Program-made: the position numbers and the translations under genes | Shown: positions 2,977 to 7,503 of the stretch, piece after piece | Position numbering within the stretch: position 1 is the first letter of the stretch | How the letters are laid out: each line of letters starts with the position of its first letter | Notes under the pieces: generated by a model | The model's database searches: none | Told to the model about the DNA's origin: nothing | The model's input: the letters and a program-made list of their open reading frames with translations, nothing else | Origin: a bacterium | Lineage (GTDB): Bacteria > SZUA-182 > DTGQ01 | Length of the DNA: 13,364 bases | Reading direction: 5' to 3' | Assembly: GCA_023512255.1 (NCBI GenBank) | Contig: JAILZY010000090.1 | Location: 1 to 13,364, forward strand

Positions 2977-2997
2977 ATGTCTCTCAATGGTAGCTAG

Positions 2998-3215
2998 TGT
3001 CTGTCCGAAAAAAATGCCTTTTGGGATTACACCTATAATGAGCAAAATCAAATATATAGGTAACAGACACATGTATATAAGTGAACAGAAACTCGTTAAA
3101 AATCGGATGAAATAGATGAAAAATTAATAATTATTTCAAATGGTTACGAACTCTTACCTGTAATAGTACTAATTAACATAATATTGTCAATAAGTTAGTC
3201 AATTTCGGACAGACA
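2998..3215. mobile_element. MITE-like element, 218 bp, with 13-bp TIRs and CTAG target duplication
   Basis: TGTCTGTCCGAAA at 2998-3010 is perfectly inverted at 3203-3215 (TTTCGGACAGACA). Each end is bordered by CTAG (2994-2997 and 3216-3219). A four-base CTAG duplication matches the YTAR target habit of some IS5-family elements. The interior is AT-rich and has no transposase; the longest plus-strand open frame (3014-3115) is 33 codons. This is the structure expected of a non-autonomous miniature inverted-repeat element mobilised in trans. The parent IS is not in the window. Confidence 0.7.
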
Positions 3216-3250
3216 CTAGTTATTAATTAAAGTTTTAGGAAAGGGGTTAT

Positions 3251-3309
3251 AAGGGGAAAACCCTTTTTCAAAAGGGTTTTCCCCTTCTTTTCAAAAGGGT
3301 TTTCCCCTT
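3251..3309. terminator. Bidirectional intrinsic terminator with a duplicated 3' arm
   Basis: AAGGGGAAAACCCTTTT (3251-3267) pairs perfectly with AAAAGGGTTTTCCCCTT (3270-3286) across a 2-nt loop. The same 17-nt right arm recurs at 3293-3309, abutting the stop codon of the minus-strand gene, so the left arm can pair with either copy. Read on the minus strand, the hairpin also follows that gene directly. It separates two convergent transcription units. Confidence 0.8.
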
Positions 3310-3310
3310 T

Positions 3311-4507
3311 CTAATCTAAAATATATCCCTCCTGTTGCAGCTTTCGGTATAATTCACCAGCTTTGTTCAGGCTATCGAAAATAAGCGATACGCTCATCGT
3401 GGCTCCGCTAATGGAATCATACTCAGGTCGGAATTGGTAATTGTGTTTAAGGTCTCGGCCAATGATCCGCCCTTGAAGTTTCTGACTATCGGCTGCGGTT
3501 ATGAGCAGGTTCTCATACTTGGTAATATGGAGAGGAATAAAGTGAGTAACTATGCCCTGTTGGTTAAAAATTAGCAAAAAATATATCGGATGGCAAACAT
3601 CGCACAAGGGAGGGCGGCTGTAGAGTTTAGCAAACCAGCGCTTTTTTTTGGCTAAAGAGCTAGAGTCAATTATATCAATAACATAGACGTTTTGGTATTG
3701 CGGCCAGCTCTTTTTATTAAAGGATAAGCGCGGCTTGCTGTTGCCATGAAGGATGGCCTGTTGAATTTTTTTCTTTATTTCCTCTTCTGACCAGGAGAAT
3801 TGAATAGGGCTTGGCCTGGCTGCGTCAACAGCTTCAGCCTGCCGCTCCTCCTGGACAATTTTCTGAAAAGAGGCTAGGTCAAGTGAGATGAGCTTTCGCA
3901 ATTCACTAAGTAATATATCCCCATTTTTAATCAATCCAAGATATGATTTGGCCAGCAAAACTCCTTCTGGAGAGCGCCGTAGGATAAGAAGGTATGGGGT
4001 GCCGCCTGGATTTCCCAAGGCATCGTAAGCCTCAAATTCTGGATCTGGGATAACGGGAAAGGGGACATTTTTTTCCACTCGAAAGCGCTCTGTCTCTCGG
4101 TGAGTATTTCCAACTCCAACAGCCAGCATCTTGATCCGACTGCTTAGGCTTTTATCCTCTGAAATTTTCTGATAGAGCTCACCCAGCACAGGAGCCTGAA
4201 CCAGACAAGAGACGCAATAGCGGTTAAAAAATTCCAAAACGATATAATCAGCCTGAATATCATCAAGGGAGAAAGTCTCATCTTCACCAAAATGAAACAG
4301 CCAACTTCTCAAGCCAAGATATCGGCGCTCTTTCCTGGTCAGGGTATTCTGCAAAGAGAGGGAAGGGATTTTCTCCCCTGGCCAAAGCCGGCGGCTTTCA
4401 GCCCAAAAGCCCTCCCTCTCGGCAGAATGAGTGAGGGTAGCAGATACACCAAATAGAAACAGGAAGATTAGGAAAGGTAAGACAAGGGAGACTTTTAGAT
4501 AGCTCAT
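3311..4507 (-). CDS. Exported thioredoxin-like / FMN-binding domain fusion protein
   Basis: 398 aa, ATG at 4507. Residues 1-29 form a signal peptide or anchor (hydrophobic 5-25, then THSA). Residues about 45-205 are a TlpA/AhpC-like thioredoxin fold with a CVSC active site (C98, C101) and the usual cis-proline loop GGTP (P171). A charged linker follows (about 210-260). Residues about 270-395 resemble the FMN-binding domain of RnfG/NosR-type proteins: the flavinylation-type motif DSISGAT places T370 as the likely covalent FMN acceptor, preceded by IPLHITKYEN. C302-D-V-C305-H306 is a CXXCH sequence, which could bind c-type heme or a metal. The gene is last in a three-gene operon and overlaps the upstream flavoprotein gene by 4 bp (ATGA). 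The inferred role is extracytoplasmic thiol or flavin electron transfer; the partner is unknown. No ApbE flavin transferase gene is in the window. Confidence 0.82.
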   Translation of the reverse strand: MSYLKVSLVLPFLIFLFLFGVSATLTHSAEREGFWAESRRLWPGEKIPSLSLQNTLTRKERRYLGLRSWLFHFGEDETFSLDDIQADYIVLEFFNRYCVSCLVQAPVLGELYQKISEDKSLSSRIKMLAVGVGNTHRETERFRVEKNVPFPVIPDPEFEAYDALGNPGGTPYLLILRRSPEGVLLAKSYLGLIKNGDILLSELRKLISLDLASFQKIVQEERQAEAVDAARPSPIQFSWSEEEIKKKIQQAILHGNSKPRLSFNKKSWPQYQNVYVIDIIDSSSLAKKKRWFAKLYSRPPLCDVCHPIYFLLIFNQQGIVTHFIPLHITKYENLLITAADSQKLQGRIIGRDLKHNYQFRPEYDSISGATMSVSLIFDSLNKAGELYRKLQQEGYILD

Positions 4508-5109
4508 ACGCTCTCCAAAATGATTTGAGCCAGATATCTTCCAAGTCGCATGGCTTGCTGTATGGCCAGAGGATGGCGCTTGATCTGCCCTTTTTGATCA
4601 ATACCAGGATAAAAAAGCTCGGAAAGGTATCGGATGTTCATGATGGTGAACCAAACTTTAACAATCTGCTGGGCATTTTGAAAGAATTGATACCTATTCA
4701 TGCCGCCTACGCACAGGAATACTCCCGGAATTTTCGCCTCCTGGGGGAAAAAGGGTGTCTTGAGGAGATACTTGGCTACCCAGCAACACTGGCCCCGATC
4801 AATGAGCGCCTTGGTTTGAGCTGTCAGACTTCCGAAGAATATCGGGGAGGCCAGAATGAGTCCTCTTGCCTGCCGAAGATAAGAGTAGATCTTGGGCATA
4901 TCATCACCAATCACACATTGGCCGCTCTTAAGACATCCTCCGCATTCCTGACATGGCCTTATCTGCAATTGATTTAACTGAAATTTTTCACCCCCAAGAC
5001 CGGCTTCCCTAGCTCCCTGAAGGCAGGCATCAACCAGCAAATCAGTGTTTCCCCCAACCCTGGGGCTTCCGCACAGGGCAATGATTGATCGGTTGGCGGC
5101 TGCGGTCAT
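4504..5109 (-). CDS. Iron-sulfur flavoprotein, NADPH-dependent FMN reductase-like (Isf-type)
   Basis: 201 aa, flavodoxin-like fold. The N-terminal FMN phosphate loop is GSPRVGGNT (residues 14-22). A compact cysteine cluster C53-x2-C56-x2-C59-x5-C65, followed by VIGDDM, matches the [4Fe-4S] motif of Isf proteins (CX2CX2CX4-7C), and ILASPIFFGS is the second flavin-contact region. There is no signal peptide, so it is cytoplasmic. Isf proteins shuttle electrons between ferredoxin and acceptors such as oxygen species or quinone-like carriers in anaerobes; the acceptor here is unknown. The ATG at 5109 overlaps the preceding gene's TGA (ATGA), and its own TGA overlaps the next ATG, so translation of all three genes is probably coupled. 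Confidence 0.85.
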   Translation of the reverse strand: MTAAANRSIIALCGSPRVGGNTDLLVDACLQGAREAGLGGEKFQLNQLQIRPCQECGGCLKSGQCVIGDDMPKIYSYLRQARGLILASPIFFGSLTAQTKALIDRGQCCWVAKYLLKTPFFPQEAKIPGVFLCVGGMNRYQFFQNAQQIVKVWFTIMNIRYLSELFYPGIDQKGQIKRHPLAIQQAMRLGRYLAQIILESV

Positions 5110-5927
5110 TTTTTGTTTCTCCTTTTCAAGGCCGAATGCCTTGGCCGAGGCTCATGAGCGGCTGAAGCATAAGATGGAGACGATGGCGGCGGCTCGGCTG
5201 ATGGATTGAGCACTCTTTTCATTTTTCGATAGAATAAAAACATAGTGGTCGGAATAGAAATGATGATAAAGATAAGAATGAGAACAAAAACCCTAGCTAT
5301 TTTCCTGGTTGTGGTTAGATCCGAAGGATTACCGGTCGAATCCGCGACCGCGGCCGATTTGCTCTCTACCCCTGCTGATTTGCTCTCTCCTCCTGCTGAG
5401 GAGGTGGGCGGCTGATTAAGCTGTTTGAGATTGACAAATCCCTGAAGCAGGGCAGAGGGAGCCGCTGTTTGCTCACTACTCTTGATAGGTACGGTAATCA
5501 GCAGACGAACTCCGATGTAGTTTTCCCCAAGAGCAGTAGCTGGAATAGAGAGATATTTTCCCCCGGTTTGGGGATTTTTTAGCGCAATCTCTTCGAATGC
5601 TGGATGCTGATTCTGAAACCGCTCAATGTGCTGAAAGACAATCTTCTGCTCATTTACCAAGGGCTGGCTCTTTTCTGTGCTCAAAGAGCGCTCTGCCTGC
5701 GTCAGGTATTCTCTGAGCTGCGGATCTTCAGCCAACTTAAGCAAGGCTGACTCCAATGCCCAAACCCAATCAGGACAAAAGAGCTCTTGGGTGGTGAGAG
5801 AATTTCGAACATTTCCCCTTTCGGCTACCCGTGAGCGGGCACTCAGATAGAAAATAGAAAATGTGATCACCACAAGGAGCGGGACCGATCCGCTGAGAAC
5901 AGCAATGATCAAAAATCTCTTCGGCAA
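5106..5927 (-). CDS. Two-TM membrane protein with Cache-like extracytoplasmic domain, no output domain
   Basis: 273 aa with a TTG start at 5927, chosen because a strong Shine-Dalgarno GGAGG lies 6 nt upstream and no in-frame ATG precedes it. TM1 is about residues 5-28 and TM2 about 211-233. The roughly 180-residue loop between them resembles the periplasmic sensor segment of histidine kinases or chemoreceptors (LAEDPQLREYL, HPAFEEIALKNPQTGGKY, IGVRLLITVPIKS). The loop ends in a low-complexity stretch with a short direct repeat (ESKSAGVESKSA). After TM2 there is only a basic, proline-rich tail (FYRKMKRV…KRRNKK) and no HAMP, kinase or methyl-accepting region. First gene of the three-gene redox operon. 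It may be a membrane anchor or sensor for its partners. The fold call is tentative; membrane topology is more certain. Confidence 0.7.
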   Translation of the reverse strand: MPKRFLIIAVLSGSVPLLVVITFSIFYLSARSRVAERGNVRNSLTTQELFCPDWVWALESALLKLAEDPQLREYLTQAERSLSTEKSQPLVNEQKIVFQHIERFQNQHPAFEEIALKNPQTGGKYLSIPATALGENYIGVRLLITVPIKSSEQTAAPSALLQGFVNLKQLNQPPTSSAGGESKSAGVESKSAAVADSTGNPSDLTTTRKIARVFVLILIFIIISIPTTMFLFYRKMKRVLNPSAEPPPSSPSYASAAHEPRPRHSALKRRNKK

Positions 5928-5931
5928 TTTT

Positions 5932-5938
5932 CTCCTCC
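5932..5938 (-). promoter_or_regulatory. Ribosome binding site deciding a TTG start
   Basis: On the minus strand GGAGGAG precedes TTG (5927) by 4 nt (6 nt from the GGAGG core). An ATG at 5940 is out of frame, and no other start in this frame has a comparable site. Confidence 0.7.
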
Positions 5939-6321: not shown

Positions 6322-7503
6322 ATGAAGACATATGAAGAGATAAATGAAAAGATCAAGCAAGGGAAAGCTGTCGTAGTTACAGCCGATGAGGTGTGTGAGC
6401 TGGCCGAGGCCGAGGGGATTAAGGCTGTGGCTGAAAAGGTCGATGTGGTAACGACAGCCACCTTTGGCCCGATGTGCTCATCAGGGGTTTTTTTGAATTT
6501 CGGACATGCCGATCCTCCAATCAAGATGAGCAAGATTTGGCTAAATAATGTGCCTGCCTATGCTGGTCTTGCCGCGGTGGATGCCTATCTTGGGGCTACG
6601 GCTGTTTCGGAGACGGAAGGAATCCAGTATGGAGGAGGGCACGTAATCGAGGACCTTTTGTCTGGCAAACCGATACGGCTGGAGGCCGAGGGCTGCAAAA
6701 CGGATTGCTATCCTGCCGAAAGAGTCTCTGTCCAGATCACGCTGGACAGCCTCAATCAGGCTATATTACTGAACCCTCGTAACGCTTATCAAAACTATGC
6801 CGCGGCCACCAACTCTTCTTCAAGAACCCTGCATACCTATATGGGCACCCTGCTGCCCAGGCTTGGGAATGTGGCCTATTCCACCTCAGGGCAGTTGAAT
6901 CCCCTAATCAATGATCCTGAGTATCGCACCATTGGCCTTGGGACCAAAATATTCCTAGGCGGCGGAATTGGCTACGTTCTGGGTGAAGGGACCCAACACA
7001 ATCCCAATCAGCTTCGGGCCGCCAACAAGGTCCCTCTCAGCAGCGCTGGAACCTTGATGCTAATGGGTGATCTGAAGCAGATGAATCCCCGCTACCTTAG
7101 AGGAGCAACCATAAAAAAATACGGCGTATCTCTCATGGTAGGCATTGGGATTCCGATTCCGGTGCTGGATGAAGGTATAGCCGAGTCGGTATCTGTTCGG
7201 GATAAGGATATTTACACCACTATTTATGACTACAGTGTAGAAAAATTATCCAGACCAACCTACGGAAGGGTCAACTACCAGGAATTGAAGTCAGGGTCGG
7301 TCCAGATCAACGGAAATCAGGTGCCGACCAATCCGGTCTCAAGCCTCTTTATGGCCAAAGAGATTGCCGCCATATTGAAAGACTGGATCAGGCGGGGAGA
7401 GTTTTTCCTGGTAGAGCCTATTTGCCTCCTCCCTCGGGATACCCGCCTTAAGCCCTTACCACAGAAGGAGGATGAATCCAAAAAGGATGGCTTGAAGTTA
7501 TGA
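6322..7503 (+). CDS. Homocysteine biosynthesis protein (DUF39/HcyBio family)
   Basis: 393 aa. ATG 6322 is the first start after an in-frame TGA (6313-6315). The whole length matches the COG1900/DUF39 family typified by MA1821 of Methanosarcina acetivorans. With a NIL-ferredoxin partner, that family converts aspartate semialdehyde to homocysteine by a sulfur-transfer route needing no O-acylhomoserine. Hallmark stretches: TTATFGPMCSSGVFLNFGH (C52), the glycine-rich YGGGHVIEDLLSG, EAEGCKTDCYP (C125, C129), SSAGTLMLMGDLK and GIGIPIPVLDEG. C52 and one of C125/C129 are the likely catalytic or sulfur-carrying cysteines by analogy. It is cytoplasmic. Its stop overlaps the next gene's ATG by 4 bp (ATGA), and that next gene encodes the expected partner, which makes the assignment strong. 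There is only a weak purine-rich ribosome site (GAAGAG). Confidence 0.92.
   Translation: MKTYEEINEKIKQGKAVVVTADEVCELAEAEGIKAVAEKVDVVTTATFGPMCSSGVFLNFGHADPPIKMSKIWLNNVPAYAGLAAVDAYLGATAVSETEGIQYGGGHVIEDLLSGKPIRLEAEGCKTDCYPAERVSVQITLDSLNQAILLNPRNAYQNYAAATNSSSRTLHTYMGTLLPRLGNVAYSTSGQLNPLINDPEYRTIGLGTKIFLGGGIGYVLGEGTQHNPNQLRAANKVPLSSAGTLMLMGDLKQMNPRYLRGATIKKYGVSLMVGIGIPIPVLDEGIAESVSVRDKDIYTTIYDYSVEKLSRPTYGRVNYQELKSGSVQINGNQVPTNPVSSLFMAKEIAAILKDWIRRGEFFLVEPICLLPRDTRLKPLPQKEDESKKDGLKL

Follow-up and report, generated by a model that had tools for sequence, protein, structure and literature searches.

The exported protein encoded by gene 3 joins a thioredoxin domain to a C-terminal flavin-like domain, and this fusion, not the three-gene operon as such, is the real find, since it represents a protein family that is widespread and apparently undescribed. 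The features of the fusion, together with its varied gene neighbors, lead us to read it as an extracytoplasmic flavin-dithiol reductase, most likely involved in oxidative-stress or thiol homeostasis. In the full reading, held tentatively at a probability of about 0.4, the operon is confined to one family, and the exported fusion, supplied by general electron donors, would reduce disulfides or peroxides outside the cell membrane in the oxidative-stress and thiol homeostasis of anaerobes. One survey treats flavinylated proteins and thioredoxins as distinct electron carriers beyond the bacterial cytosol that can partly stand in for each other (PMC8238504). A fusion of the two, conserved in many anaerobic lineages beside genes for oxygen defense, formate dehydrogenase, or multiheme cytochromes, would directly connect these carrier classes, and it offers proteins with which to test how the envelope proteins of anaerobes are protected or matured. 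A search of open-licence papers found no described thioredoxin-flavin fusion, and a description elsewhere is possible. In the available parts of two flavinylation surveys, thioredoxin is either a separate gene, as in DsbD and P19 systems, or unmentioned (PMC8238504, PMC11334425), and in the available part of an ApbE review, thioredoxins, if mentioned, are separate proteins (PMC12052999).

The window, that is, the whole stretch of 13,364 nucleotides that was analyzed, is one complete contig (C97) of a 3.83-Mb draft genome. The three genes overlap by 4 bp at positions 5106-5109 (genes 1 and 2) and 4504-4507 (genes 2 and 3), as the preliminary description had reported, and the domains that it assigned were also borne out: FMN_red in gene 2 and AhpC-TSA in gene 3 score over their cut-offs, and the flavin domain of gene 3 is FMN_bind-like. 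The trio is flanked by a divergent homocysteine-biosynthesis-type gene starting at 6322 and by a convergent surface-protein gene ending at 2904, and, judged by position, it forms its own transcription unit. The repeat block just past gene 3 consists of a 17-nt perfect inverted repeat with a 2-nt loop and one further copy. This block was not called in the terminator scan, shuffled sequence contained promoter- and terminator-like sites at least as often, and the Rfam search gave no match. Two further features lie beyond the operon. At 2991-3222, 20-nt terminal inverted repeats (95%) flank 192 bp without a gene, in what looks like a small non-autonomous transposable element, and positions 1-2904 encode a large open-ended protein with Lsa25-like repeats (surface adhesin model, below cut-off) and a dockerin-like C terminus.

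Table 1. Genes and sequence features of the operon, in positions of the window.
Feature	Position	Strand	Description
Gene 1	5106..5927	minus	273-aa two-TM protein
Gene 2	4504..5109	minus	201-aa cytoplasmic FMN_red-family flavoprotein, Isf type
Gene 3	3311..4507	minus	398-aa exported thioredoxin (ResA/TlpA-like) + FMN_bind-like fusion
Ribosome-binding site GGAGGAG	5932..5938	minus	precedes the TTG start codon of gene 1; sequence reading
C53-x2-C56-x2-C59-x5-C65	4915..4953	minus	candidate 4Fe-4S ligands in gene 2; sequence reading, alignment A2
Thioredoxin-type C98-V-S-C101	4205..4216	minus	gene 3; kept in 49/50 members; predicted redox role
Second motif C302-D-V-C305-H306	3590..3604	minus	gene 3; opens the flavin-like domain
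Flavinylation motif D364-S-I-S-G-A-T370	3398..3418	minus	gene 3; exact D-x-x-[S/T]-G-A-[S/T] match
Inverted/tandem repeat block	3251..3309	none	just past the gene 3 stop codon; possible terminator

Hydropathy places a single signal or anchor at the N terminus of the fusion. The N-terminal part matches PF00578 (AhpC-TSA) with 28.8 bits against a cut-off of 26, and the predicted model of its thioredoxin fold (pLDDT 83.4) retrieves ResA/CcmG/DsbE chains with Z scores of 14 to 17. The C-terminal part reaches 12.6 to 14 bits for FMN_bind (PF04205), below the gathering cut-off of 22 bits, and is therefore filed as FMN_bind-like and not as a member. Nonetheless, FMN_bind is matched weakly (E ≤ 0.1) by 34 of 38 members of the fusion family, and the profile of the C-terminal domain aligns with the RnfG of the same genome around the flavinylation motif (55% probability; E of 1e-4, which holds for a single comparison). 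The match of this domain to 2kzx is weak (E of 0.14), and the domain modeled alone and without an alignment gave a poor model (pLDDT 39). Structure searches with the full model were filled by thioredoxin-fold chains, so the absence of FMN_bind chains there means nothing. From these sequence comparisons, the C-terminal domain is FMN_bind-like and probably carries a flavin.

The family was collected by genome searches and a GTDB-wide scan with an alignment; a contig scan with the single protein matched nothing. Fifty distinct full-length homologs were compared from approximately 23 lineages, mostly of anaerobes, which include Deltaproteobacteria/Thermodesulfobacteriota, Desulfobacteraceae, Poribacteria, and Gemmatimonadota. 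The only member that departs from the thioredoxin CxxC (L101_03) reads YGFSC, having lost the first cysteine. The second CxxC retains both cysteines in all 50 proteins, and it is followed, after 55 to 57 residues, by a Dxx[ST]x[AG][TS] motif that is likewise present in all 50. The seven-residue flavinylation motif is given as D-x-x-[S/T]-G-A-[S/T] in the ApbE review, which also states that replacing its glycine by alanine halved flavinylation in one studied enzyme (PMC12052999). This canonical glycine is found in 5 of the 50 fusions, the window protein and its kin among them, and support for flavinylation therefore rests with the window protein and not with most members. For the window protein, flavinylation, predicted from its motif, is well supported, and the FMN would be carried on Thr370. 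The flavin transferase ApbE is encoded in the same genome (G000:C53; PF02424, 294 bits) and in 13 of the 15 genomes tested, and none was found in the fusion-bearing genomes G004 and G105 (92 to 93% complete).

Several loci carry variants of the fusion. Longer second fusions of 561 to 569 residues (L109, L125, and L127) and an open-ended 477-residue copy (L122) have extra sequence between the thioredoxin and flavin-like domains, and all of them adjoin a standard copy of 373 to 416 residues. Three tandem copies are found downstream of FdhE in L120 and L123, the last of which has TSGT instead of the usual motif. Many shorter thioredoxin relatives, mostly from sulfate reducers (L142-L184), match over the thioredoxin part only, and oxygen-defense genes are present at 12 of these 42 loci.

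The neighbors of the fusion vary by lineage and comprise oxygen-defense genes, formate dehydrogenase genes with FdhE, or multiheme cytochromes c. In G128, the fusion follows desulfoferrodoxin, rubrerythrin, a flavodiiron-type protein, an FAD-dependent reductase, a second rubrerythrin, glutaredoxin, and thioredoxin reductase (TrxR), and in G002, from the family of the window, it shares one run of genes with desulfoferrodoxin, a flavodiiron-type protein, glutaredoxin, and TrxR. In G004, of the same order as the window, it lies with a Fur-family regulator, a sulfite-reductase-like protein, and a multiheme cytochrome and adjoins AhpC pieces, whereas in L112 a ferritin-like protein overlaps the fusion by 4 bp and is accompanied by rubrerythrin, peroxiredoxin, and MsrA. 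At L047 (5008-5739), an AhpC-type peroxiredoxin lies beside the fusion in two open frames, as a pseudogene or a sequencing error. Among the genes 3′ of the fusion are those of a 2-oxoacid:ferredoxin oxidoreductase (L122 and L125) and, in three lineages, genes of aromatic amino acid metabolism (L041, 6539-10276; L044 and L099-L104; L118, L120, L123, and L124). The latter encode chorismate mutase/prephenate dehydratase and an aminotransferase in G001 (L041), DAHP synthase in the G116 phylum, and a class I/II aminotransferase in L118-L124.

The link to oxygen defense was quantified with stress-protein models built from the neighbors of the fusion and run over all loci and over 40 random stretches, drawn regardless of content from genomes of the same kinds. 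Oxygen-defense genes are present in 6 of 23 fusion lineages, grouped by hand, and absent in the other 17, against 2 of the 40 random stretches (Fisher one-sided, 0.023), a count that is biased upward because the models were seeded from fusion loci. The count for loci of the gene 2 flavoprotein, 5 of 14 against the same random stretches (Fisher one-sided, 0.0095), is not so biased. These flavoprotein loci, once intended as a neutral baseline, proved to be enriched in stress genes themselves, and the random stretches took over that part. An example is G133, where a homolog of gene 2 (42% identity) stands at the end of an island with a Fur-type regulator, a flavodiiron protein, a ferritin-like protein, desulfoferrodoxin, peroxiredoxin, glutaredoxin, TrxR, and rubrerythrin, named from the models of this analysis and from sequence reading. 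No oxygen-defense gene adjoins the trio itself in the window, G001, or G003. Taken together, the neighborhoods support, short of proof, a role in stress for the cytoplasmic flavoprotein as well as for the exported fusion.

The other neighborhoods bear on a different reading, unlikely although the likeliest of the rivals. Here the fusion would be a ResA/CcmG-like reductant, or a chaperone-like partner, that helps to mature respiratory proteins after their export, for instance apocytochromes c or a formate dehydrogenase of the periplasm, and its flavin domain would let the electrons in. The best structural and sequence matches of the fusion, ResA/CcmG/TlpA, are those expected of such a protein. 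Moreover, the fusion directly adjoins multiheme cytochromes c in the G116 phylum, in Poribacteria (with 4-bp overlaps), and in G004, it closes the formate dehydrogenase-type operons, FdhE included, of G066 and G105, and FdhE is found near it in L118-L124. However, neither cytochrome c nor formate dehydrogenase genes adjoin the trio, and the fusion has many other neighborhoods. Cytochrome c assembly proteins are encoded in all 12 genomes tested, but they are common anyway and score over cut-off in 8 of 14 control genomes.

The same assembly proteins, the export of the fusion, and the histidine that follows the second CxxC in 45 of the 50 members would also fit a heme c site at this motif, giving a protein with a thioredoxin dithiol, a c-type heme, and perhaps a flavin. 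While both cysteines are invariant, this histidine is replaced by lysine (two members), threonine, glycine, or glutamine (one each) in at least four lineages, and heme c at CDVCH is for that reason kept as a rival only. Alignment A4 reveals no obvious second conserved axial ligand, and the motif runs directly into a predicted beta strand, which makes this reading rather improbable.

As a flavin-dithiol reductase, the reading preferred here, the fusion would sit on the outer face of the cytoplasmic membrane, and electrons would pass between the FMN, C302/C305, and C98/C101, in either the reductase or the oxidase direction. They would come from a CcdA/DsbD-type protein, from RNF flavins, or from cytochromes c, and not from the trio. 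A DsbD/CcdA-type protein (PF02683) is indeed present in the genome of the window, and RNF genes surround its only FMN_bind protein at the Pfam level. No PF02683 protein was found in three fusion-bearing genomes of the G116 phylum, which, with a multiheme cytochrome beside the fusion, would suit a donor other than DsbD/CcdA. A bolder reading of this widespread family, possible but somewhat doubtful, is a self-contained relay within one polypeptide, from the covalent flavin through the second CxxC(H) to the thioredoxin dithiol, that would feed the envelope thiols of anaerobes without a DsbD-type conduit, drawing on flavin, quinol, or cytochrome donors.

The protein encoded by gene 2 matches PF03358 (FMN_red) with 64.7 bits against a cut-off of 24, and hydropathy predicts no TM helix. 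Across 15 homologs, C53, C56, and C65 never vary, and 3 of the 15 lack C59. Its closest solved chains are 7d38 and 1rli, and the PDB sequence matches at E ≤ 1 name no Isf chain. In an anaerobe, oxidative and nitrosative stress induces Isf proteins (PMC3164229), and the Isf-like flavoprotein would serve a stress response inside the cell, either in O2 or peroxide removal or as an electron carrier. Homologs of gene 2 are common and are also encoded in G005-G008, which represent sister families within the class and are without the fusion.

Gene 1 is far more restricted, with homologs in G001 and G003 only among the 145 genomes searched. Its product has TM helices at residues 5-23 and 213-231 by hydropathy, approximately 190 residues outside between them, and a basic C-terminal tail rich in proline and serine, and it would act as an anchor or a sensor. 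It has no meaningful match to Pfam or NCBIfam, and so to no known family, including those of electron transfer, and no output domain was seen. A Cache or PAS sensor named from the pattern is not claimed, as there is no profile match. The single cysteine of the protein is missing from both homologs.

The three genes occur in the same order in G001 and G003, both from the family of the window, with identities of 52, 81, and 72% for genes 1, 2, and 3 between G001 and the window. In G003, the trio is split inside gene 2 over two contigs, the ends of which share an exact 127-bp overlap. The ATGA overlaps are not universal, since G001 has a 4-bp overlap and then a gap of a few base pairs, and G003 has an 11-bp overlap and then 8 bp. 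By this comparison of sequences, the trio is conserved by more than chance, and the co-occurrence in other genomes on which the preliminary description had made its proposal depend is thus seen. As a general system, the trio was rejected, because gene 1 is found in only three genomes of one family. The fusion occurs without genes 1 and 2 in nearly all lineages, and G002, of the same family, encodes a divergent fusion and neither of the other two genes. The independent occurrence of the partners in G002 and in G005-G008 indicates that older parts were brought together locally to form the trio.

The preliminary description had proposed a fixed-ratio complex, with the membrane protein as anchor or sensor, that passes electrons from the cytoplasmic Fe-S flavoprotein toward the exported fusion. 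A fixed complex with an electron path by way of the membrane protein is favored by the close coupling of the genes and by their shared conservation in the window, G001, and G003, but it is very unlikely: the gene 1 protein lacks a conserved cysteine and resembles no electron-transfer family, so that the trio has no visible membrane-crossing carrier and a dedicated trans-envelope path is unsupported, and the fusion and the flavoprotein mostly occur apart, which makes a fixed three-part complex doubtful.

Each component resembles a known system in part. Like Isf of the Methanosarcina thermophila type, the gene 2 protein combines an FMN_red fold with CX2CX2CX5-7C, the compact cysteine motif of iron-sulfur flavoproteins (PMC3164229); its Fe-S cluster and FMN are putative. 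DsbD/CcdA systems would have the same role of delivering reducing power to a thioredoxin outside, yet the gene 1 protein lacks their conserved pairs of membrane cysteines and gives no PF02683 match. With ResA/CcmG/TlpA (DsbE), the fusion has in common a membrane-anchored or exported thioredoxin fold, a CxxC, and the conserved Thr-Pro (T170-P171), and it differs in its active-site dipeptides (VS, FS, FG, TS, and similar) and in the addition of a C-terminal flavin-like domain with a second CxxC. Like RnfG, NqrC, and the other ApbE-flavinylated FMN_bind proteins surveyed in PMC8238504 and PMC11334425, the fusion is exported, and it shows weak similarity to them across the whole family and the exact seven-residue motif in the window protein. 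In contrast to these proteins, it scores below the Pfam cut-off, has the glycine of the motif replaced in most members, and bears a CxxC(H) in a flavin-like domain that is joined to a thioredoxin.
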